Positions 11,631 through 24,295 of a stretch of 64,000 nt of DNA are shown in pieces (positions within the stretch are counted from its first letter, which is position 1; each line of letters begins with the position of its first letter). This DNA comes from Salegentibacter sediminis (GTDB lineage Bacteria > Bacteroidota > Bacteroidia > Flavobacteriales > Flavobacteriaceae). The stretch spans positions 62,001 through 126,000 of the forward strand of contig NZ_MSJR01000001.1 of assembly GCF_002078605.1 (NCBI RefSeq). The letters run 5' to 3'. A program made the translations under genes and the position numbers. The notes under the pieces are model-generated. The model saw only the letters and a program-made list of their open reading frames with translations. It did not search any database and was not told the origin of the DNA.

Positions 11631-12554
11631 CTAGTTAAGAAACGGGACGAGTAGGGGCATTAAAATGAGTAATCCCAGTAAGATTTCTTTAAAGAGCTTA
11701 TCTTTTTTCCGCTCAAACCAGGTTGAAGCGATAATGCTCAACGGAACAAAAAAGAAAATAAGTTCGCTTCCATCTTTGGTTGGTGAAAAAACTGCGATAG
11801 CAATTGAGGTAATAAGACTAATCAATACCAGGTTAAGCGACGGCCGTAGACTTATACTGGCTTTTTGGAGCAATCTCAGGTAATTGCCTAAGGTCCAGAT
11901 TAGCACTGCAAGGATTAGGCTTAACGGAATAAGCAAAGAAAGGTCCCTATAATTGCTGAAATCAAAATTCATCGGTTCATACCATTGGGAAAACCCGTAG
12001 ATATTTTCGTAGGCCACCAAATGGAAGCTTAGATTAAGCAGGTATACCCCCAGGAAAGCTACCAGGGGAATCAACCAGTTCTTAAATTTAGGCAGGTAAA
12101 AGAGAATTCCAGCAAAAACCACTACCAGAAAAAGGATAGACCAGAAATAAAAAATTGAAGCGATACAGATCCAAAAGGTAGCGTCGAAAACTTTTTTCTG
12201 CATAATCTTTTTAGAACGCAAACTCAGGATGCGCCTAAAGGCAAATAAAACACATAGATTTGCAAAAATCACCTGGGTATTATTGAGCAGGGCAAAAAAA
12301 GAAGTGGTAAAAACTGCGAATAACAGGATCTTATAGGCACTGCGCCGGGTGAGTTCATTTTTCTTGGCAATAAAATTAAGCACATATACACTTAGCAGAA
12401 AAGCAAGAAGAACCGCCAGGTTTTCCAAAAAGATAGCCAGGTTAAAAGCCAGGAAATTATCTCTGAAATTAGCGATCACAAAAATAAGCGTCATAAAAAG
12501 CGCTACCACTATTCCATTATGTGGTTTTGATTTACCAAAAAAGCTTGTTAGCAT
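11631..12554 (-). CDS. DUF6427 family integral membrane protein
   Basis: This 307-residue protein is almost entirely hydrophobic, with about nine or ten membrane helices and a short N-terminus (MLTSFFGKSKPHNG). It matches my recollection of the DUF6427 family of flavobacteria. The layout recalls polytopic glycan-processing membrane proteins, but no catalytic loop motif can be recognised. It is transcribed toward DUF4254, 130 bp away, and diverges from the small membrane protein at 12674. Confidence 0.75.
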   Translation of the reverse strand: MLTSFFGKSKPHNGIVVALFMTLIFVIANFRDNFLAFNLAIFLENLAVLLAFLLSVYVLNFIAKKNELTRRSAYKILLFAVFTTSFFALLNNTQVIFANLCVLFAFRRILSLRSKKIMQKKVFDATFWICIASIFYFWSILFLVVVFAGILFYLPKFKNWLIPLVAFLGVYLLNLSFHLVAYENIYGFSQWYEPMNFDFSNYRDLSLLIPLSLILAVLIWTLGNYLRLLQKASISLRPSLNLVLISLITSIAIAVFSPTKDGSELIFFFVPLSIIASTWFERKKDKLFKEILLGLLILMPLLVPFLN

Positions 12555-12673: not shown

Positions 12674-12904
12674 ATGAAAGATTTTTTTGAAGGAATCGCA
12701 TGGCTTTTTGAAGAGGTGTTGTTTATCCCATTAGATGCGCTTCGTAAATTGGAATTAGACTCCTGGTGGGCAGCCAACGCCATTAATTTTATTTTTATCC
12801 TTATTGGATTTGCTGCTTTTTTCTACTGGATGAAACAGCTTAAAAAATTTAACGATAACAACGAAGAAAACCGGGATCCTTCTGCTCATTCATTTTTAGG
12901 ATAA
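12674..12904 (+). CDS. Small membrane protein (DUF6341-like)
   Basis: This 76-residue protein has one clear membrane helix (WAANAINFIFILIGFAAFFYWM) after an amphipathic start (MKDFFEGIAWLFEEVLFIPLDALRKL). The track starts it at a TTG at 12629, but the ATG at 12674 gives the family-like N-terminus, so I use that. I recall such proteins next to purD in flavobacteria under the name DUF6341, some wrongly labelled uracil phosphoribosyltransferase. Nothing here supports that enzyme. Its end overlaps the purD end by 9 bp on opposite strands. Confidence 0.7.
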   Translation: MKDFFEGIAWLFEEVLFIPLDALRKLELDSWWAANAINFIFILIGFAAFFYWMKQLKKFNDNNEENRDPSAHSFLG

Positions 12905-14170
12905 GTCGAAACCAAGGTCCTTTCTATAATACATCTTATCAAAATGTAATTTCTCTGCATTTTGATAAGATTTTTTTAGCGCTTCTTTGTAATCTGTTCC
13001 GAACGAAGTTATTGCTATAACTCGTCCTCCACTGGTCACGATTTTTTCTTCCTCTATTTTAGTGCCAGCATGAAATACAATGCTATCCTGAACAGCATCA
13101 AACCCAGTGATTTCTTTCCCTTTTTCATAAGCCTCAGGATAACCACCTGAAACCAACATTACAGTAGTAGCCGCCTGCTCATCTATCTCAAGGCTTGCCT
13201 CATTCAGCTTTACCTCAGAGACCTTTTCCAACAATTCAACAAGATCAGATTTTATCCTGGGTAGTACAACCTCCGTCTCGGGATCGCCCATTCTAACATT
13301 GTATTCTATTACAAAAGGCTCCTCCCCCACTTTTATTAAGCCTATAAAAATAAATCCTTTATAATCTATTGCTTCTTTTTGTAAACCCTTTACGGTAGGT
13401 TTTACAATTCGTTCTTCAATTTTCTCCATCAAGTCCTTATCGGCAAATGGCACTGGGGAAATAGCCCCCATTCCTCCGGTATTAAGCCCGGTGTCTCCTT
13501 CTCCTATTCGTTTATAATCTTTTGCGGTGGGAAGAATCTTATAATTTTTACCATCGGTAAGCACAAAAACGCTGAGCTCTATTCCATCTAGGAATTCTTC
13601 TATCACCACTTTAGCACTCGCTGCTCCAAATTTCTTATCAGAAAGCATACTTTCGAGTTCAGCTTTCGCCTCATCAAGGCTGTCAAGGATCAAAACCCCT
13701 TTCCCGGCGGCAAGACCATCAGCTTTTAAAACATAAGGAGGTGTTAGCGTTTCCAGGAATTTTTTCCCCGCCTCCAGGCTTTCTACAGTAAAACTTTCAT
13801 AAGCCGCGGTAGGGATGTTGTGCATGGCCATAAATTCCTTGGCACGCTCTTTACTGCCCTCAAGCAAAGCCCCGCGTTTGGAAGGTCCAATTACTTTTAC
13901 CGACTTCAATTCCGGGTCTTCAGCAAAAAAATCGGTTATTCCCTGTACCAAGGGATCTTCTGGACCTACAATGAGCATTTCTATTTCTTGCTCTAACACG
14001 AAATTTCTAATACTTTCAAAATCGCTGAGCTTTAGGTCTACATTTTCAGCAATTTGAGCGGTTCCAGCATTGCCGGGCGCCACAAAAAGTTTAGTGCATT
14101 TTTTGCTTTGGGCAACTTTCCATGCAAAGCTGTGTTCACGGCCTCCGGAGCCAAGTATTAAAATTTTCAT
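12896..14170 (-). CDS. purD: Phosphoribosylamine-glycine ligase (GARS)
   Basis: This 424-residue ATP-grasp enzyme joins glycine to phosphoribosylamine in the second step of purine synthesis. It starts KILILGSGGREHSFAWK and shows the family stretch LKADGLAAGKGV (ATP lid), GGMGAISPVPF and VIEYNVRMGDPETEVVLP (metal-binding). The length is normal. It is a single gene with its own promoter at 14196-14227, and no other pur genes are nearby. Its last 75 bp encode, on the other strand, the terminator of the convergent small gene. Confidence 0.97.
   Translation of the reverse strand: MKILILGSGGREHSFAWKVAQSKKCTKLFVAPGNAGTAQIAENVDLKLSDFESIRNFVLEQEIEMLIVGPEDPLVQGITDFFAEDPELKSVKVIGPSKRGALLEGSKERAKEFMAMHNIPTAAYESFTVESLEAGKKFLETLTPPYVLKADGLAAGKGVLILDSLDEAKAELESMLSDKKFGAASAKVVIEEFLDGIELSVFVLTDGKNYKILPTAKDYKRIGEGDTGLNTGGMGAISPVPFADKDLMEKIEERIVKPTVKGLQKEAIDYKGFIFIGLIKVGEEPFVIEYNVRMGDPETEVVLPRIKSDLVELLEKVSEVKLNEASLEIDEQAATTVMLVSGGYPEAYEKGKEITGFDAVQDSIVFHAGTKIEEEKIVTSGGRVIAITSFGTDYKEALKKSYQNAEKLHFDKMYYRKDLGFDLS
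12933..12977 (+). terminator. Plus-strand terminator embedded in the 3' end of purD
   Basis: A perfect 14-bp inverted repeat (ATCTTATCAAAATG / CATTTTGATAAGAT) with an 11-base loop is followed on the plus strand by a T-run. It lies just after the stop of the small plus-strand gene but inside the purD coding region. Confidence 0.7.
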
Positions 14171-14195
14171 TCTGAAAGTCTTTTAAATGTTGTCC

Positions 14196-14227
14196 CAAAA
14201 ATAATTGTTTGTAAATTGAAGCACCAA
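14196..14227 (-). promoter_or_regulatory. Promoter of purD
   Basis: On the minus strand TTG, 21 bases, then TATTTTTG matches the Bacteroidetes TTG/TAnnTTTG pattern and lies 26 bp before the purD ATG. Confidence 0.6.
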
Positions 14228-14250
14228 TTTATTTCGAATAAAAACGCAAT

Positions 14251-15564
14251 TTGCCCTTGAACTGGTTTAAGCTGTCCCTACAACTCAATAAATTTCCCAT
14301 AAACCGGGCACAAAGACTTTTAGGTAAAATCCGGGAGATTCCTGAAGATTATTATGGGGATTACCTGGAGAGCAAAAAATTCGAAATCCTTGATTATCAT
14401 TTAAAAAATAATCCGTTCTACCGGGAATTTAGTGGAAAAGATAAGTTTGAAAAATGGGAAGAGGTGCCGGTACTTCATAAAGCTCAACTTCAACAGAAAC
14501 TAAAACACAGGCTCAGCAAGAATTTCAAAAAACGCAATATTTATGTGGGGAAAACCTCGGGCAGTAGCGGAGAGCCGTTTATTTTCGCCAAGGACCGGTT
14601 TTGTCATGCCTTAAGTTGGGCCGGATTTCAGGATCGATACCAATGGCACGGCATAGACCTCAACAAGAGTTTACAAGCCCGTTTTTACGGGATACCCCTG
14701 GATCTTTACGGCAATCTTCAGGAACGATTTAAAGATAGAATCAGCCTACGAAGACGCTTCAATATATTTGATCTCAGCGACAGGAAGATGGAGATTTTTC
14801 TTGATCGGTTTCAAAAATCAAAATTCGACTACATAAACGGATATACCAGTGCAATCCTTCTTTTCGCTAAATACCTTAAAAGCAGAGATATTATTTTAAA
14901 AGAGGTTTGCCCCTCCTTAAAACTTTGTATTGTGACTTCAGAGCGACTTTTTAAAGAGGATAAGGAGCTTATTGAAAGTGCAACGGGTGTTCCGGTGATT
15001 AACGAGTATGGAGCCAGTGAGGTTGGTTTAATCGCCTTTGAAGACGAGCATAAAAACTGGATCGTGAATTCGGAAGATCTTTATGTGGAAATCCTGGATG
15101 AAAACAACCTCCCGGTGCCCAATGGGCAGGAAGGCCGGGTGGTAATCACCTCCCTTTATAACCTTGCTCATCCTATGATAAGATACGATATAGGTGACAC
15201 CGGGATACTTTCTGAAAGAAGTACCCCAAAAACCCCTATTCTTCAAAAACTCATTGGCCGAACCAACGATGTGGCAAGGCTGGCAAACGGTAAACTGGTA
15301 CCCGGACTAACATTTTATTATGTAACTAAAACCATTATTGAAGATAACGGGAACATCAAGGAGTTTGTGGTGGCCCAAACCGCACCCGATAAATTTAAAA
15401 TTGATTATATAAGCGAAAAAGCTTTTACCGAAACTCAAATTGAACGAATTCTTAGGGCAATTGAGAAGTATGTTGGGGAAGATCTAAAGGTCTTTTTTGA
15501 AAGAAAAGAGGTTTTAGATCGGGACAAGAGTGGTAAACTTAAGCAGTTTACTTCCCGAATCTAA
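14251..15564 (+). CDS. PaaK/CapK-like adenylate-forming enzyme
   Basis: This 437-residue protein belongs to the adenylate-forming (ANL) superfamily near phenylacetate-CoA ligase and CapK. It has the phosphate-loop KTSGSSGEPF (101-110), the adenine region NEYGASEVG and the hinge area MIRYDIGDTG. CapK-like members occur in polysaccharide loci and may activate an acyl group for sugar decoration. The start is a TTG: an in-frame stop lies 12 bp upstream and the first internal Met is far inside. It diverges from purD, and its stop overlaps the stop of the convergent GT2 gene by 4 bp. Confidence 0.83.
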   Translation: MPLNWFKLSLQLNKFPINRAQRLLGKIREIPEDYYGDYLESKKFEILDYHLKNNPFYREFSGKDKFEKWEEVPVLHKAQLQQKLKHRLSKNFKKRNIYVGKTSGSSGEPFIFAKDRFCHALSWAGFQDRYQWHGIDLNKSLQARFYGIPLDLYGNLQERFKDRISLRRRFNIFDLSDRKMEIFLDRFQKSKFDYINGYTSAILLFAKYLKSRDIILKEVCPSLKLCIVTSERLFKEDKELIESATGVPVINEYGASEVGLIAFEDEHKNWIVNSEDLYVEILDENNLPVPNGQEGRVVITSLYNLAHPMIRYDIGDTGILSERSTPKTPILQKLIGRTNDVARLANGKLVPGLTFYYVTKTIIEDNGNIKEFVVAQTAPDKFKIDYISEKAFTETQIERILRAIEKYVGEDLKVFFERKEVLDRDKSGKLKQFTSRI

Positions 15565-16337
15565 GTAGTCTTAAGTTGTTTTCTCTTCACGAAAAAATGT
15601 TCTTTCAGAAACATTAGCATACAACGCAGGCTTTTGAAGAAACCAAAGCCAAGAACTTTATTATAAATATTAAAATTGTAGCGCAGCATTTCGAATTTAT
15701 TTCCTGAAACAGAATTTCTTCTAAGCCGGTAAATCGCCAGAGGTTCCTTTATGCTTTTTGCAGTCTCCGCCCTTTTTACCGCTGCCAGCCATAACCCCCA
15801 ATCCTGTCTTTTTCTAATTTCAGGGCCATAGATTTTACCGAGTTCTGCAGCATTATAGATTCCGGTAAGATTTCCGATATAATTTGATTTTAATAGTTTC
15901 TGGTAAGTTACATAAGGTAAAGCTTGCACGACTTCCCTTCGTTTCTTCCCGTTTTCTGTGATATGTTCATAGCTGGAAAAACAAACCGAGACTTCATTTT
16001 CACACATAAAATCCAGCTGAGTGCTGAGTTTATGTGGTTTCCAAAGGTCATCGGCGTCCAGAAATGCAATGTATTTACCATTTGCAGCGCTTATTCCTTT
16101 GTTTCTCGAAATTCCTGGCCCTTGATTTTCTTTATTCTGAATTAATTTGATACGCTGGTCTGCAATTGCGAACTCTTGGATTATTACTGAAGTATTATCT
16201 GCTGAGGCATCATCAATCACGAGTAATTCCCAATGGGAATAAGTTTGCTCCTGCACAGATTTAATGGAAGCTTCAATAAAGCGTTCGGCATTATAAGCCG
16301 GCATGATAACTGAAACCAACGCATTCTGATTCATCAC
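15561..16337 (-). CDS. Glycosyltransferase family 2
   Basis: This 258-residue GT-A enzyme has the GT2 start [14 protein letters not shown], the nucleotide-binding [10 protein letters not shown], and the DxD-type metal site in FLDADDLW. It transfers a sugar from a nucleotide-sugar donor, probably onto a lipid-linked surface glycan. The C-terminus has a short basic tail but no membrane helix. It is the last gene of the M23-GH3-DUF6909-rfbC-rfbD-UXS operon and overlaps the UXS gene by 4 bp (ATGA type), showing translational coupling. Acceptor and linkage cannot be read. Confidence 0.9.
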
Positions 16338-17323
16338 CTTCTTATATGTTTGGAAAAATCTTTATGTTCACTCTTTTTCAGGTCCTCAGGACTTAGATTT
16401 TTAAAGTATTCGTAAGTAATTTTCATTCCCTGATCCCGGGGAACCTTAGGCTCCCAGTCTAAGATTTCTTTTGCCCTGGTAATATCGGGTTGGCGTTTAA
16501 GGGGATCATCTTGTGGAAGTTCTTTATAAACGATTTTTTGTTGTGTGCCGGTAAGTTTAATGATCTCTTCAGCAAAATCTTTAATGGTGATTTCATCTGG
16601 ATTACCAATATTCACCGGATCGGTATAATCGCTCAAAAGAAGTCTGTAAATCCCTTCAATCTGGTCGTCTACAAAGCAAAAGGAACGCGTTTGTAGTCCA
16701 TCTCCAAAAACGGTTAAATCTTCCCCTCTTAATGCCTGGCCAATAAACGCCGGAATTACCCGACCGTCATTGAGTCGCATTCTTGGACCGTAGGTATTAA
16801 ATATTCGGGCAATCCTGGTTTCCAGCCCGTGAAAACGATGATAAGCCATGGTAATAGATTCCATAAAGCGTTTTGCCTCATCATAAACCCCGCGCGGGCC
16901 AATGGAATTTACATTTCCGTAGTATTCTTCGTTTTGAGGATGTACAAGGGGATCTCCATAAACCTCGGAAGTTGAAGCGATAAGAATCCTTGCATTTTTC
17001 TCCTTGGCCAGACCAAGACAATGTAAAGTTCCCACCGAACCCACCTTAAGGGTTTGTATTGGAATTTTAAGATAATCTATAGGGCTGGCAGGTGAGGCAA
17101 AATGAAGGATGTAATCAAGCTTACCGGGAACATGTACAAATCTTGTTACATCATGATGCAGGAACTCAAAATTCTCATTACCGAAAAGGTGCTCAATATT
17201 TTTAAGATCTCCGGTAATGAGGTTATCCATTCCAATCACTCGAAAACCTTCTTTAATAAACCTGTCGCAAAGATGGGATCCCAGAAATCCGGCTGCGCCG
17301 GTAATAAGTATTCGTTTTGCCAT
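16334..17323 (-). CDS. UDP-glucuronate decarboxylase-like epimerase (UXS family)
   Basis: This 329-residue extended short-chain dehydrogenase has the NAD motif GAAGFLGS (9-16), STSEVYGDP around 117-125, and the catalytic YDEAK (Tyr147, Lys151). The family features FNTYGPRM and [14 protein letters not shown] point to UDP-xylose synthase, which makes UDP-xylose from UDP-glucuronate. A related 4,6-dehydratase or epimerase cannot be excluded. It sits between rfbD (28 bp upstream) and GT2 (4-bp overlap), so its product probably feeds the same glycan. Confidence 0.88.
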
Positions 17324-17351
17324 GTAAAAATCGTTTCTTCCCGTAAATTAA

Positions 17352-18215
17352 TTAAATTTCACGAGAACTGTTGGTGATTAAATTTTCCAGACTTTTCTTC
17401 CATTCAGGCACCAGATAATTAAAATTCTCCTGTAATTTTCTTTTATTTAAAACGCTAAAAACCGGGCGTTCTGCCAGGGTTTTATAAAATCCGCTTTTGT
17501 TTAGTTCTACCTCATTGCTTTTTCCTGATAGCTCCAGGATTGCCCGGGCAAAATCATACCATGTAGCCTCACCCTCATTACTGAAATGATAAAGCCCAAA
17601 CTGCGCGTTTTCTTCGCTGATGAGCTGAAGCACAAACTGCGCAAGATCTTTAGCGTTAGTTGGGGTTCCTGTTTGAGCGGTGGTGATATTGAGTCTTGCC
17701 CCCTCTTCTGCTTTCTTCAGAATGGTATTGAAAAAATTATGACCGAATTCTGAATATAACCAGGAGGTTCTAAAGATAAAATACTTTTCCATGCCCTGCA
17801 TGATATATTTCTCCCCTTTCAACTTGGAAGCGCCATACACATTGATGGGATTAACCTTATCGGTTTCCTGGTAAGCTTTGGTTGTTTTCCCGTCAAAAAC
17901 ATAATCGGTCGAAAAATGTATTAAAACCGTCCCGTTATTTTCACAAACCTCAGCCAGGTTCTTCACTCCTTCAGCATTGATTTTAAAAGCCGTTTCTTTA
18001 TCACTCTCGGCCTTTTCAACATTGGTATAAGCGGCGCAATTAATACAGTAATCGGATTTTTCTTCTGAAAATATTTTCTGTATTTGGTTTTGATCGGTAA
18101 TATCAAGTTGAGAGGAGTCGAGAAATATAAATTTCAACTCGGGATGTCCCAAAGCGATCTTTTTAAAACACTTTCCCAGTTGTCCCGAAGCACCTGTAAC
18201 TAAAACCTTTTTCAT
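17352..18215 (-). CDS. rfbD: dTDP-4-dehydrorhamnose reductase
   Basis: This 287-residue SDR protein has the NAD(P)-binding GASGQLGKCF near the N-terminus, FSTDYVFDG, and the catalytic YGASKLKGE. It performs the last step of dTDP-L-rhamnose synthesis. It overlaps rfbC by 4 bp, a coupled pair. RfbA and RfbB, the first two enzymes, are not in the window, so they must be encoded elsewhere. Confidence 0.95.
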   Translation of the reverse strand: MKKVLVTGASGQLGKCFKKIALGHPELKFIFLDSSQLDITDQNQIQKIFSEEKSDYCINCAAYTNVEKAESDKETAFKINAEGVKNLAEVCENNGTVLIHFSTDYVFDGKTTKAYQETDKVNPINVYGASKLKGEKYIMQGMEKYFIFRTSWLYSEFGHNFFNTILKKAEEGARLNITTAQTGTPTNAKDLAQFVLQLISEENAQFGLYHFSNEGEATWYDFARAILELSGKSNEVELNKSGFYKTLAERPVFSVLNKRKLQENFNYLVPEWKKSLENLITNSSREI

Positions 18216-18757
18216 CCAAAAACCTCCTTTAATTTCGGCTGCGCGAGATCTTTATCTGAGATAATCATCTTTTCCTCCGGAAACTCCCAATCAATGGCGA
18301 GATCGGGATCGTTATAGATAATCCCAGCTTCGGCATCGGGATGATAATATTCGTCGCACTTATATGCAAAAACAGACGTTTCAGAAAGGGTTACAAAACC
18401 ATGCCCGAAGCCTTTGGGAATATACAGCTGATGCAGGTTAACATCATCAAGAATAGTTTTAAACACCTGTTTAAAAGTAGGGGATTCAGGCCTAAGATCA
18501 ACAACCACATCCAGCACCTTTCCATAGATAGCACGCACTAACTTGGTTTGACCAAACTCACCACGCTGGTAATGCATCCCGCGCAAAACCCCGTGGGTGG
18601 AAATAGATTGATTATCCTGCACGAACTCCTTGGTGATTCCCGTGAGATCGATGAATTTTTTCTTATGATAACTCTCCAAGAATAGTCCTCTTTTATCTCT
18701 AAAAATATCGGGCTTGATGATAAAACAATCTTTCAGCGGTGTCTCTTTTACCTGCAT
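18212..18757 (-). CDS. rfbC: dTDP-4-dehydrorhamnose 3,5-epimerase
   Basis: This 181-residue cupin enzyme inverts C3 and C5 of dTDP-4-keto-6-deoxyglucose. It shows GVLRGMHYQ (catalytic His), KLVRAIYGKVLDVVVDLR and the later VFAYKCDEYYHP containing the catalytic Tyr region. Length is normal. It follows DUF6909 by 10 bp and overlaps rfbD by 4 bp. The two rhamnose genes lie in the middle of an operon whose first three genes are not obviously sugar enzymes. Confidence 0.96.
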   Translation of the reverse strand: MQVKETPLKDCFIIKPDIFRDKRGLFLESYHKKKFIDLTGITKEFVQDNQSISTHGVLRGMHYQRGEFGQTKLVRAIYGKVLDVVVDLRPESPTFKQVFKTILDDVNLHQLYIPKGFGHGFVTLSETSVFAYKCDEYYHPDAEAGIIYNDPDLAIDWEFPEEKMIISDKDLAQPKLKEVFG

Positions 18758-18767
18758 TTATCCTGGT

Positions 18768-20453
18768 TTAATTTTCAAAGATCTGGTCAAGGATCTTTTC
18801 GGTTATCAAATATGTAGGTTTTACGCCGGTAGTCCCCAATCCCCCTGAGGCAAGAGTGCTTCCGGTTTCCAGAGGATTATCTGAGGCATAATAGGCATAT
18901 CTCACTTTCACATCTTCTTTGATACTACCCCGCAGCTTGGAGGCTGCCTGGATGGCTTTTTGATAGTGGGCCCCTTCCATTTCGAGGCCGCTTACATTCC
19001 AGGTAGAATCATGGAAAAATTTTAAAATATCTTTATTCTGAAGTGAGGTTCCTAAAACCGTGATCATCGCCCCGTCTACAATCTTGATCCCATGGTTTTC
19101 AAGATCCTCTTTTTTCAATTCATTTCTGAAAGGATAGTTGTCGGCTGTACCTTCAAAAACGTGAGCGGTAGGGACCATAATATCACCTTTGCCTCCATCA
19201 AGAATCCCGGCTTTTCCCATAATGGAAATGGAGGATACGTTCATTTTAATTTCGTTGCCTTCAAAATTAAATGGTTTCAAAAGCTCATCCATAGTTTCGT
19301 AAGCCTGCTCTCCAAAGGCGTAATCCATAACCACAATAACAGGTTTTTCGTCCTTCTTAACACCAGCTTTCTTTCCATTATAAGCGTTTTTGAGCTTTGC
19401 CGTATCAAAAACCTGCACATCTATATTGGTGCCGCTTTTATCTTCTATGAAATGCATCCCGTTATCCAGAGCTGCTTTCATAACTTTATTCCTGAGTTTC
19501 CCATTCCCGCTATCGCTAAGGGCCTCATAAATCTCAAGAACTTTTTTCTTCTTTAGTTCTTCCTTTAAAGCAACCGGCGAATAAAGGGTATTCATAACGC
19601 TATGCATATTCGCACTAATAATATGTACCGGGCGATGCATAAGATTTTCCTTTAGGAGAAATTGTTTGATATTATCGGCCCAGATCTCTCCGTGGATATG
19701 GTGACCTAATCTTTCCCGCAATACCGGACTAAAAGTTATTATGCGTTTTTCATTTTTTACCGTTTCTGCAATTGCCAGCTTTCCGAGGCTATAGATGATA
19801 TTAAGAAAACGTTCGGGTTGCCCGGTAGAAGCAAATTTTGGATACAGTGTACACACTTCATTAAAGGTACGTCCAAGAATATTCGCGGTATGTGTTAAAG
19901 CAACCTCTCTTTCTTCCCTGCTGAGTTCCGTATCCTGAAGCACCGCTTTTTCCAGTTTTTCCCAATCTCTGGTTACACTGCCTTCTTCATCAATAAGCAC
20001 ACGTCTCATTATTTTATGGGATTCCACAAAGAGAAAAGTAAGATGCGTAAGAATATCGTAGATCTCCGATCTCCCCCGAGTTATCTCAATATTCATCTGC
20101 TCTTCGTCAATTCTGTAACAGTTTCTACGACGTTTTGGAGGAACGATAGGTTTAAAATGTGAGTTTCCGTAGCCCTCATCGCTGGTTAAATTGATATAGG
20201 TACACTCCTCAATACCAATTGGGAGTCGGTCTACTACATAGAGGAGACCGTTTAGCTCAACTTTATCTTCAGCGATAGATCCATAGATCTCAGGCCTTAG
20301 CGTAAGCAAGGCTTCTCTTAAGGTTTCACCAGAAACCCCCATAGGTTTATAGAAACCCCGGTTAAAAAGGTGCCGCATAGTAATGTACATTCGCTCAATG
20401 GCATGTGTACTTTCCTGTGCCCGGGTACGGCCTTGTAGTTTTAAATTCACCAT
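18768..20453 (-). CDS. DUF6909-like protein with nucleoside-phosphorylase-like C-terminal half
   Basis: This 561-residue soluble protein has no signal peptide. The N-terminal half (1-280) is charged and mainly helical, with no motif I recognise. The C-terminal half shows features of the nucleoside phosphorylase/nucleosidase fold: ISIMGKAGILDGGKGDI (409-425, like the phosphate/nucleoside strand followed by GDI), LEMEGAHY (490-497, like the ribose-binding ME motif), and ASDNPL (523-528, like the catalytic SD). AMP nucleosidase also has an extra N-terminal domain. I recall the family label DUF6909 from memory. It lies 3 bp after GH3 and 10 bp before rfbC. The enzymatic activity is inferred, not known. 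Confidence 0.7.
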   Translation of the reverse strand: MVNLKLQGRTRAQESTHAIERMYITMRHLFNRGFYKPMGVSGETLREALLTLRPEIYGSIAEDKVELNGLLYVVDRLPIGIEECTYINLTSDEGYGNSHFKPIVPPKRRRNCYRIDEEQMNIEITRGRSEIYDILTHLTFLFVESHKIMRRVLIDEEGSVTRDWEKLEKAVLQDTELSREEREVALTHTANILGRTFNEVCTLYPKFASTGQPERFLNIIYSLGKLAIAETVKNEKRIITFSPVLRERLGHHIHGEIWADNIKQFLLKENLMHRPVHIISANMHSVMNTLYSPVALKEELKKKKVLEIYEALSDSGNGKLRNKVMKAALDNGMHFIEDKSGTNIDVQVFDTAKLKNAYNGKKAGVKKDEKPVIVVMDYAFGEQAYETMDELLKPFNFEGNEIKMNVSSISIMGKAGILDGGKGDIMVPTAHVFEGTADNYPFRNELKKEDLENHGIKIVDGAMITVLGTSLQNKDILKFFHDSTWNVSGLEMEGAHYQKAIQAASKLRGSIKEDVKVRYAYYASDNPLETGSTLASGGLGTTGVKPTYLITEKILDQIFEN

Positions 20454-20456
20454 ATA

Positions 20457-21956
20457 TTATACTTTTATAATTTCTTCCAAAACAGCAGCAATTTTCCTGT
20501 CGTTAGCAAGTCGTGGAAGCTTATTCTGTCCTCCAAGTTTTCCAATGGATTTCATATACTTCTGAAATCCGTTCGAGGGAACCCGGGTGATTTTTAGGGG
20601 TTGAAGTATTTTTCCTTCAATAAGATCAAAATAATAAGAATTTTGCTCCTGAAGAGATTTATCAAGAATTTTTCTGAAGGCATCTACATCCTCAGGTTCT
20701 TTTTCAAATTCTATAAACCATTCGTGGTAGGGCAATTCATCATTTCCTGGAGTGATCTGCGGGGCGACTGTAAATTCACTAATACGTGCCTTTGTTTGTG
20801 TGGTAGCGAGCTGCATAGCTTCTTCTACCTCTTTGGCAATAACGTGCTCTCCAAAAGCCGATATAAAATGCTTAATCCTTCCCGAAACGATTAGCCGGTA
20901 GGGTCTGGTGGAAGTAAATTGAACCGTATCGCCGAGATTATAGGCCCAAAGGCCGGCATTACTGGAGATAAGCATCACATAGTTAACGCCGGTTTCAACT
21001 TCACCAATCGTGAGTCGTTTGGGATTTTCATCGAAAAATTCATTGGTCTTAATGAATTCGTAGAACATCCCTGAATCCAGCTGCAATAGCATTCCTTTCT
21101 CGTTTTGTTTATCCTGAAAGGCGAAAAATCCTTCCGAAGCCGGGTAAAGCTCGATACTATCTACCTTCCTCCCGATTAGATTTTCAAATTTTGCACGGTA
21201 AGGCTCATAGTTTACCCCGCCATAAATAAAAAGTTCGAAGTTTTTAAAGAGGTCTCCCACCTTTTGCCCGGTTTTCTGCTGAAGTCGCTCAAAATACATC
21301 TGCACCCAGGATGGAATCCCGCTAATAACGGTCATATCCTCGCCCCGGGTTTCTTCAACTATAGCGTCTACCTTGGTTTCCCAATCTTCGATACAATTGG
21401 TTTCCCAACTTGGCAACCTGTTCTTCTGAAGGTATGAAGGCACATAATGTGCAACAATCCCCGAAAGGCGCCCTAATTTCACTCCGTTTTTTTCATCAAG
21501 CTCCGGACTTCCCTGTAAAAAGATCATTTTTCCATCTACAAAAGATGCATTACCTGTCTCGGCGATATAACATAATATCGCATTCCGGGCAGCATTAATA
21601 TGCGTTGGCATAGATTCTTTTGTAAGAGGAATGTATTTCGCTCCACTGGTAGTACCGGAGGTTTTTGCATAATACAGCGGTTTTCCCGGCCATAGAACAT
21701 CAGCTTCCCCGGCAACCATTTTATCTACCCAGGATTTTAATTCTTCATAGTCCCTAACAGGAACTTTTTCTGCAAAATCGCCATATGTTTTTATGCTTTG
21801 GAAATCGTGATCTCTCCCAAAGCTGGTGTTCCCTGCCTGGCTAATAAGTTTTTCGAAGACCTTTTGCTGAGTAGCTTCAGGTTTTGAAGCCCAGGCATCA
21901 ATTTTTTTGCGTATGTATCGGGCAAATAATTTTGCTCCTATGGATTTTAAAGACAT
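20457..21956 (-). CDS. GH3 family acyl-adenylate-forming protein
   Basis: This 499-residue protein matches the bacterial branch of the GH3 auxin-responsive family. It has the ATP phosphate-loop TSGTTSGAKYIPLT (99-112), the adenine-binding area YPASEGFFAFQD and the hinge-containing YNLGDTVQFTSTRPYR. Plant GH3 enzymes conjugate amino acids to carboxylic hormones through an acyl-AMP. The bacterial substrates are unknown. It is 6 bp after the M23 peptidase and 3 bp before DUF6909, the second gene of the operon. This is the second ANL-type enzyme in 8 kb, from a different subfamily than the one at 14251. Confidence 0.9.
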   Translation of the reverse strand: MSLKSIGAKLFARYIRKKIDAWASKPEATQQKVFEKLISQAGNTSFGRDHDFQSIKTYGDFAEKVPVRDYEELKSWVDKMVAGEADVLWPGKPLYYAKTSGTTSGAKYIPLTKESMPTHINAARNAILCYIAETGNASFVDGKMIFLQGSPELDEKNGVKLGRLSGIVAHYVPSYLQKNRLPSWETNCIEDWETKVDAIVEETRGEDMTVISGIPSWVQMYFERLQQKTGQKVGDLFKNFELFIYGGVNYEPYRAKFENLIGRKVDSIELYPASEGFFAFQDKQNEKGMLLQLDSGMFYEFIKTNEFFDENPKRLTIGEVETGVNYVMLISSNAGLWAYNLGDTVQFTSTRPYRLIVSGRIKHFISAFGEHVIAKEVEEAMQLATTQTKARISEFTVAPQITPGNDELPYHEWFIEFEKEPEDVDAFRKILDKSLQEQNSYYFDLIEGKILQPLKITRVPSNGFQKYMKSIGKLGGQNKLPRLANDRKIAAVLEEIIKV

Positions 21957-21962
21957 ATAGTT

Positions 21963-22832
21963 TTAATCAAAATCAATATAATCGGTTGGGTTTACCGGTA
22001 CTCCTTCGTTCCAGAGTTCAAAATGCAAATGAGGGCCGCTGGTATATTCTCCGGTAGATCCTGCTGTGGCTATCACTTCCCCGGTTTTTACAATATCTCC
22101 CTGTTCTTTAGTTAAGGAGGCATTATGTTTATATACCGAAAGGAGGCCATAGTTATGCCGTACAATAATAACATAACCGGTTTGTGTAGTCCATTCTGAA
22201 AAAATCACTCTTCCTTCAGCCACCGATTTTACTGCAGAATTTTTTGGCACTACAATATCTATGGCATAATGCCTGTCTTTAAGATTAAAACCTTCAGAAA
22301 TAGATCCTTTTACCGGCGGAAATAAAGAAAAATCAACATTATCTACTGCAGAGGCCAGGATATTATATTTATCTTCCTGTGCTACTTCTTCCCGTAAAAG
22401 GGAATCTGCCCGGGAAGGTTCTATTTGTTCTATTTCTCCAGGTGGTTGTGGGCTTTCCATAAGCGAATCCCTGTTAAGCGATCTGGTTTCAGCTTCTCCT
22501 GTTAAAACACTTTTTATAGAATTGAGATATTGGTCATTAAGCTTCAAAACCCGCTGCAATGAGTCTGATTTATAAGCGAGATCTACTGCCCTGCTCTTTA
22601 ATTCAGGAGAAGAATATCCGGGAATATATTCCCGTAAAGGCGTAAAGGCAATAATAACCGTGGTGGCTGCCACCAGGAGTATAGCACTAAGAGTGACCGT
22701 TACGAAAACGTTCAGGCGGGTAAGTTTAAATGAAAGTCGCTCCTCAAAAGTATCTTCATTTAATATTACCAGGCGGTACTTATGAAGTAGTTTTTTGGCG
22801 AATTTCTTTTTATGTTTCTTATTGGCTGCCAT
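21963..22832 (-). CDS. M23 family metallopeptidase, inner-membrane anchored
   Basis: This 289-residue protein has a basic cytoplasmic start (1-40), one membrane helix (about 41-63), a linker with a coiled-coil stretch (75-160), and a C-terminal LytM/M23 domain. The zinc ligands are visible: His188 and Asp192 in RHYAID, and the HLH at 268-270 in GPHLHFELW. It should cut peptidoglycan cross-links in the periplasm. It is the first gene of the seven-gene operon continuing with GH3 and DUF6909. The 239-bp spacer to tatA, on the other strand, holds the promoters for both directions, but none matches the consensus well. Confidence 0.93.
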   Translation of the reverse strand: MAANKKHKKKFAKKLLHKYRLVILNEDTFEERLSFKLTRLNVFVTVTLSAILLVAATTVIIAFTPLREYIPGYSSPELKSRAVDLAYKSDSLQRVLKLNDQYLNSIKSVLTGEAETRSLNRDSLMESPQPPGEIEQIEPSRADSLLREEVAQEDKYNILASAVDNVDFSLFPPVKGSISEGFNLKDRHYAIDIVVPKNSAVKSVAEGRVIFSEWTTQTGYVIIVRHNYGLLSVYKHNASLTKEQGDIVKTGEVIATAGSTGEYTSGPHLHFELWNEGVPVNPTDYIDFD

Positions 22833-23071: not shown

Positions 23072-23263
23072 ATGAATACATTTATTTTACCATTGGCGAT
23101 AGGAGCACCGCAAATCATTTTAATTGTAATTGTGGTTCTACTGTTATTTGGAGGTCGAAAAATTCCTGAATTAATGAGAGGATTGGGTAGTGGAATTAAA
23201 GAATTCAAGGACGCTTCCAAAGATGATAATGACGAGAATAAAGTTCCCGAAGAGAAGAAATAA
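23072..23263 (+). CDS. tatA: Sec-independent protein translocase TatA
   Basis: This 63-residue protein has one membrane helix (about 13-27), then the signature [20 protein letters not shown], an amphipathic helix, and an acidic tail. It is a TatA/TatE family pore-forming subunit of the twin-arginine pathway. No tatB or tatC is adjacent. Bacteroidetes often lack a distinct TatB and keep tatC elsewhere. A single-gene transcript is likely, ending at the terminator at 23281. Confidence 0.95.
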
Positions 23264-23280
23264 CTACCTTATTTTTATAA

Positions 23281-23319
23281 AAGAAAAAGCCCAACTTTCC
23301 AGTTGGGCTTTTTCTTTTT
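23281..23319. terminator. Bidirectional terminator between tatA and DUF4837
   Basis: AAAAAGCCCAACT and AGTTGGGCTTTTT form a long perfect stem with a TTCC loop, flanked by A- and T-runs. It serves the convergent tatA and DUF4837 genes. Confidence 0.85.
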
Positions 23320-24295
23320 ATTTAATCTTCGCAGATTGTAGGATAGCATCCAACTCGAAGATATTGTCACGTTTTCCTCTTGCTGGTGAAAAAACAAAAC
23401 CTTCAACAACCAAATAACGGTTGTTGGCTTCATCTCTAATTGCATAGTTTACAAAGGGTCCGGCCATAAAGGCATTCTTAACCTCCCAGGTTCCCCGGGT
23501 TTCATAGGCAAACTTTCCGTCTATCTCGGTTTCAAAAAGATAAGGCGCATAGGCTTCTTCGGTAATCATATAACTACCTTCCACCGGGCCGGGAATATAA
23601 GCTTCTCCAATAGAATCTCTCATCTTAATGATATTGCCAATTATATTAGTGTCTTTTTCAATTTGATTGAGAGGAACCTCGTAAATGAGTAATTCCATAT
23701 TTCCCTTCGTGATCTCTTTTCTAAGCCAAATAAAACCATCTTCTTCAACTGCATAACGATAAATTGAGGGAAATTTAAGAGACAGGCCAAACTCCTCTTC
23801 CAGTTTCTGATCTTTCCCGAGAGATTTTTGCATTCTGCGTTGTTTCTCCTTCATTTCAGTCTCTTTGAAGACAGCAATAGCCTTATCTGCACCCTCATTA
23901 ATGGCTCGAATAATTTCTTCTTCATTAGGCCCGGAAATAATTATTCCGGTTTGCGGACGTGCATATACATTGTTTAGCACCTTAACTCCTGCTTCATTAG
24001 CTTTTTCAACCTTTATAAAGGAACGGTTTCTTCTTACAAAGCCGGTAAAGGTTTCCGGTGGGATTTGCTTAAGAGAAAAGGTAGGTTCCTCCTGGGGCAA
24101 ACCATCTACGGTTGCGGCAAAATTATTGCGAAGTGCCTCTCCCACGGGGCCTTCCCAGAGATTGTTTTCAATTATTAAAGTTACCTGATTGATATTCCCC
24201 GAAGAATCTACTAAAATACGTTCCTTTTTCTCGTTTTGGTCATCGCAGGAAATAAAAAGAAATAAGGATAAAAGAAGAACTAAAGATTTTTTCAT
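23318..24295 (-). CDS. DUF4837 family lipoprotein
   Basis: This 325-residue protein begins with a lipoprotein signal (LFLFISC, Cys17) and resembles the Bacteroidetes family DUF4837. It is a mixed alpha/beta protein with no catalytic motif I recognise. Typical stretches are NNLWEGPVGEALR and GTWEVKNAFMAGPFVNY. It should be anchored in an envelope membrane and is the third gene in the pgk-mltD-DUF4837 order (25 bp after mltD). Function is unknown; the neighbouring transglycosylase suggests a cell-wall or envelope role. Confidence 0.85.
   Translation of the reverse strand: MKKSLVLLLSLFLFISCDDQNEKKERILVDSSGNINQVTLIIENNLWEGPVGEALRNNFAATVDGLPQEEPTFSLKQIPPETFTGFVRRNRSFIKVEKANEAGVKVLNNVYARPQTGIIISGPNEEEIIRAINEGADKAIAVFKETEMKEKQRRMQKSLGKDQKLEEEFGLSLKFPSIYRYAVEEDGFIWLRKEITKGNMELLIYEVPLNQIEKDTNIIGNIIKMRDSIGEAYIPGPVEGSYMITEEAYAPYLFETEIDGKFAYETRGTWEVKNAFMAGPFVNYAIRDEANNRYLVVEGFVFSPARGKRDNIFELDAILQSAKIK

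Follow-up and report, generated by a model that had tools for sequence, protein, structure and literature searches.

A DUF6909 protein of Salegentibacter sediminis with a predicted nucleosidase fold, and its candidate role as an AMP nucleosidase in Bacteroidota

The locus and its genes

The window, that is, the whole stretch of DNA that we analysed, comprises 64,000 nucleotides of the Salegentibacter sediminis genome. Positions 18768-20453 of the window are filled by a single open reading frame of 561 amino acids plus stop, taken from the ORF list. An earlier reading based on the letters alone (the sequence-only reading) had given this interval exactly, but had not mentioned that the gene lies on the minus strand. 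In a Pfam search, the protein is a full-length member of DUF6909 (PF21850; E 1.1e-63, 215.9 bits against a curated cut-off of 27). The family entry records no function, and we found no paper naming DUF6909 or PF21850 in the literature that we searched. The family is common among marine and soil Bacteroidota, and is frequent, though not universal, in Flavobacteriaceae. The gene, its two domains and its immediate neighbours are as follows.

21963-22832, minus strand: M23 peptidase (PF01551, E 1.6e-28), by gene order the first gene of a probable M23-GH3-DUF6909 unit
20457-21956, minus strand: GH3-family acyl-adenylating enzyme (PF03321/PF23571/PF23572), 3 bp upstream of the DUF6909 gene
18768-20453, minus strand: DUF6909 protein, 561 amino acids plus stop (ORF, translation and PF21850 match)
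19749-20453, minus strand: N-terminal domain, residues 1-235, largely helical, in which residues 112-123 form a beta hairpin (AlphaFold2 model)
18771-19748, minus strand: C-terminal domain of predicted nucleosidase/phosphorylase fold, residues 236-561 (AlphaFold2 model, Foldseek, and a weak PF01048 match at 405-496)

The M23, GH3-type and DUF6909 genes are consecutive on the minus strand, separated by 6 and 3 bp, and the GH3-type gene is probably co-transcribed with DUF6909. The idea of the sequence-only reading that a nucleosidase in a glycan/peptidase operon would be a new combination is weak, because the arrangement is kept only in Flavobacteriaceae. There, the M23-GH3-DUF6909 order is found at nearly all loci with enough flanking sequence. 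Outside that family the flanking genes differ, and no neighbour was recurrent among the loci we looked at. We therefore set the neighbourhood aside as a clue to function and regard the order as a trait of the Flavobacteriaceae lineage. The best NCBIfam match of the GH3-family enzyme is OlsH, a lyso-ornithine lipid synthetase (E 1.1e-118; the score of 397 bits lies below the cut-off of 620), almost 90% of whose homologues are found in Bacteroidota (PMC12493201). GH3 enzymes release AMP (PMC12493201), and a link to an AMP-consuming enzyme is conceivable; this is speculation, since the linkage is bound to one lineage.

Other genes of the window were recorded as well. A DUF4837 protein (23318-24295, minus strand) stands beside the three genes in most Flavobacteriaceae loci, and between it and the M23 gene, on the opposite strand, lies a 63-amino-acid ORF similar to a TatA/E translocase subunit (23072-23263, plus strand). 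Positions 12896-18757 hold rfbC, rfbD, a UXS-type epimerase, a GT2 glycosyltransferase, a PaaK-like adenylating enzyme and purD; the longer gene order through purD is kept in the closest genera only. A DUF6427 protein is encoded at 11631-12554 (minus strand). A defence or phage role for DUF6909 was also considered and found no support: neither PADLOC nor PHROGs yielded anything noteworthy, and the viral contigs searched contained no relative.

Motifs, active-site positions and predicted fold

The sequence-only reading had likened the C-terminal half of the protein to nucleoside phosphorylases and AMP nucleosidases on the strength of three motifs, GKAGILDGGKGDI, LEMEGAHY and ASDNPL, which the translation does contain in that order. 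Among 29 diverse DUF6909 relatives, whose identity to the query of 53-85% across the whole length corresponds to very slow evolution, the blocks GKAGI (413-417), EMEG (491-494) and SDNPL (524-528) are invariant, as they also are in 78 closer DUF6909 sequences. The EME and SDN residues, on whose conservation that reading had staked its claim, are therefore invariant in both sets, so the motifs are not due to chance. The positions of interest are listed below, at window coordinates obtained by re-translation; AMN denotes the AMP nucleosidase residues to which they are compared.

19698-19703, minus strand: H251-H252, proposed residues by which the adjacent subunit would bind the 5′-phosphate (AMN H188-Y189; alignment by eye)
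19608-19610, minus strand: N282, invariant, at the end of the first core strand (AMN N205; HIISAN against AMN VLFTN by eye)
19203-19217, minus strand: GKAGI, core strand and turn, with K414 as in short AMP nucleosidases (GKCGG); invariant (hhalign register and consensus)
18972-18983, minus strand: E491-M492-E493-G494, putative ribose-binding ME motif (AMN M404-E405); invariant (hhalign register)
18870-18884, minus strand: S524-D525-N526-P527-L528, with the putative catalytic aspartate (AMN D428, SDKPL); invariant (hhalign register)
18834-18866, minus strand: TGSTLASGGLG, a conserved loop at the site of the AMN phosphate lysine K436, with a putative role

By sequence alone, the homology of DUF6909 to the AMN and PNP families is weak. 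The score of the ORF against PF01048 is 15.2 bits, below the Pfam threshold of 25.1, and 14 of the 29 members match this profile weakly (best E 0.0015). An NCBIfam search of the ORF gave no AMN family match, with none to TIGR01721 at E<=10; HMMs of short and long AMN scored DUF6909 close to shuffled decoys, and searches of PDB sequences, with the single sequence or a profile, returned chance matches only. When profiles of the C-terminal domain were compared, the scores (23.9 against short AMN and 23.4 against long AMN) exceeded those of all 60 column-shuffled decoys, and also of the reversed ones, in each case. The hhalign alignments of DUF6909 with the AMN profiles also fall in the register of the motifs, at a probability of only about 1-2%, which is not significant alone. 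Since the family fails their score and domain tests, DUF6909 should not be filed under TIGR01717 or TIGR01721.

An AlphaFold2 model built from 78 homologues has a mean pLDDT of 77.7, with good values over the greater part of the C-terminal domain and poor ones at residues 1-45 and 249-253. A Foldseek search against the PDB gave 266 matches at E<=0.001, and the best 50 of these all belong to the PNP superfamily. Among them are an MTA/SAH nucleosidase, which is the best match (4g89, E 1.6e-6), AMP nucleosidases (2guw, E 1.9e-6; 7uwq, E 1.1e-5; 1t8s, E 1.5e-5) and a futalosine hydrolase (4bn0, E 3.2e-6); in a viral library, nucleoside phosphorylases were likewise the top matches. The matches of this model thus support the inference that residues of about 236-561 adopt the PNP/UDP-phosphorylase/nucleosidase fold, as the motifs had led the sequence-only reading to propose.

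The N-terminal part is without assignment, as had been claimed: it has no Pfam domain besides DUF6909, and a model of residues 1-255 (pLDDT 80.9) found no match in the PDB by Foldseek (best E 0.49). The N-terminal domain of long AMN, PF10423, was not detected in DUF6909 by Pfam, hhalign or Foldseek. The segments IEITRGRSEIYDILTHLTFLF and TTITRPTLFRSYLNEQLTLLY look alike by eye, which had made a relationship of the two N-terminal domains a candidate; as hhalign and Foldseek were negative, this likeness is kept only as a lead.

For the active site, a comparison with KpAmn is possible, in which N205, W383, M404, E405, D428, R381 and K436, together with H188 and Y189 of the other chain, line the site; of these, distant AMN homologues share only M404, E405 and D428 (PMC9584410). 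By hhalign register and consensus comparison, these three correspond to M492, E493 and D525 of DUF6909, all invariant. The positions of R381, W383 and K436, in an alignment made partly by eye, are occupied by T469, L471 and T533. Thus, the substrate of DUF6909 may differ from AMP, and a nucleosidase of the same fold could act, for instance, on some other 5′-nucleotide (IMP, GMP, or one that is modified or cyclic) or on a nucleoside, with MTA, SAH and futalosine as candidates. In place of the lost residues, DUF6909 has an invariant T469-S470-L471-Q472-N473 and the conserved T530-G540 loop, and Foldseek does not separate MTAN, uridine phosphorylase and AMN. On the other hand, H251-H252 seem to retain the pattern of the AMN 5′-phosphate ligands (R-L-x-H-[HY] against R185-L186-x-H188-Y189, aligned by eye and at low model confidence). 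That the model is weakest at 249-253, the proposed phosphate site, counts against an AMP nucleosidase.

As the fold is common to phosphorylases and hydrolases, DUF6909 might instead release the base and ribose 1-phosphate. The residues with which phosphorylases bind free phosphate are, however, not apparent at the matching DUF6909 positions, which makes a hydrolase, i.e. a nucleosidase, likelier. The phosphate serine of phosphorylases is S90 in E. coli PNP; its position is that of K414, and the position of R87 is that of I411. The lysine (GKAG) occurs also in the short AMP nucleosidases (GKCG), at a position where phosphorylases have the serine. This again favours a hydrolase, and we consider a phosphorylase very improbable.

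Distribution in relation to the short AMP nucleosidase

The PF01048 proteins of the Salegentibacter genome other than DUF6909 are two purine nucleoside phosphorylases and one uridine-phosphorylase-like protein, and none is TIGR01721, the family annotated as the short AMP nucleosidase (its identity as such is that annotation). The Salegentibacter genome also carries apt, whose product would salvage adenine. Among 396 Bacteroidota genomes, DUF6909 is present in 57 and a strong TIGR01721 match in 106, with no overlap. In a single family (f8, 129 genomes), 67 have DUF6909, 54 have TIGR01721, nine have neither and one has both; this sole overlap is doubtful, being an 82%-complete assembly with an 88-amino-acid DUF6909 fragment. 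A third set, of 60 relatives of the Salegentibacter genome, contains five genomes with a strong AMN-type match, all five without DUF6909, and one of these belongs to the same family as Salegentibacter. Some complete genomes carry neither protein, and the long AMN domain PF10423 was absent from the 148 Bacteroidota searched for it.

Fisher tests gave p-values of 5.9e-9 (396 genomes) and 1.6e-25 (family f8), which overstate the evidence because kinship is ignored, and the exclusion pattern is in part a matter of shared ancestry. Swaps within families and within genera are a stronger argument than these p-values. Three genera (g177, g207 and g222) include both types. Only g207, where each kind is represented by one single-contig genome (loci L182 and L183), is a clean case, since g222 is that of the overlap genome and g177 rests on a 113-amino-acid fragment.

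Two further observations concern related proteins. A third AMP-nucleosidase-like protein, of about 395 amino acids and with a shorter N-terminal part, occurs at locus L177 (genome G054) and in families f22, f24 and f43; it scores about 150 bits to TIGR01721, and DUF6909 is found in none of its sampled genomes. In Bacteroides and Parabacteroides (L149 and L150), the short AMP nucleosidase lies between a gene with an HsdR N-terminal domain and holA.

The near-perfect exclusion in three genome sets suggests that DUF6909 and the short AMP nucleosidase perform the same task, and together with the apparent histidine pattern it leads us to regard a different substrate as unlikely. A bolder variant, to which we give a low probability, is that DUF6909 combines a new N-terminal domain with a nucleosidase whose base and phosphate pocket has been rebuilt, that it cleaves a nucleotide other than AMP or responds to a new controlling signal, and that it has repeatedly displaced short AMN in Bacteroidota. 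The large, unassigned N-terminal domain and the slow evolution of the whole protein would also suit a catalytically dead nucleotide sensor or regulator of PNP fold. However, invariance of D525 and M492-E493 is typical of enzymes, and the exclusion is what one would expect if one enzyme had taken over from another; we consider such a sensor very improbable.

Candidate activity and known relatives

Our preferred reading, to which we assign a probability of about 0.68, is that DUF6909 acts as a diverged nucleotide N-ribosidase, with AMP as the most likely substrate, and takes the place of the short TIGR01721 enzyme. The analysis itself shows the motifs and that they are invariant, a predicted fold, and the exclusion of TIGR01721; the residue roles, the substrate and the oligomer belong to the proposed mechanism. 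In the mechanism that we infer, a two-domain cytoplasmic enzyme would convert AMP and water to adenine and ribose 5-phosphate. Water would attack C1′ of a ribose whose hydroxyls are bound by M492-E493, and the base would leave with its N7 protonated by D525. The 5′-phosphate would be held by H251/H252 of the neighbouring subunit, and possibly also by the T530-G540 loop, and the N-terminal domain may serve regulation or assembly. DUF6909 would thereby stand in for TIGR01721 in Flavobacteriaceae and in parts of other Bacteroidota families.

Under this reading, a conserved DUF found in most Flavobacteriaceae sampled has a candidate function that can be put to the test, and there may be an explanation of how these bacteria manage without the usual AMP nucleosidase, an enzyme at which adenylate levels are controlled. 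It would also provide a natural example of families, and even a genus, in which one form of an enzyme has given way to another.

With regard to known systems, the MTA/SAH nucleosidase (4g89) has the best Foldseek E-value against DUF6909 and carries ME and SD motifs, but it has no N-terminal domain, and its substrates are 5′-thio-nucleosides without a 5′-phosphate. The long AMN (TIGR01717; E. coli 1t8s, Klebsiella 7uwq) has, like DUF6909, an N-terminal and a PNP-type domain, and is matched by Foldseek. Its M404, E405 and D428 are kept in DUF6909, as by eye are N205 and H188-Y189, whereas R381, W383 and K436 are not and the PF10423 domain was undetected. The short AMP nucleosidase (TIGR01721/PRK07115; PDB 1ybf) is about 258 amino acids long and without an N-terminal domain, as against 561 amino acids in DUF6909, and there is no significant profile match between the two. 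They share, in order, GK[CA]G, GD[IL]xxP, EGT..xY, ME and SDxP[LM], and they have the same PNP fold by prediction, occur in the same phylum and are complementary in distribution.
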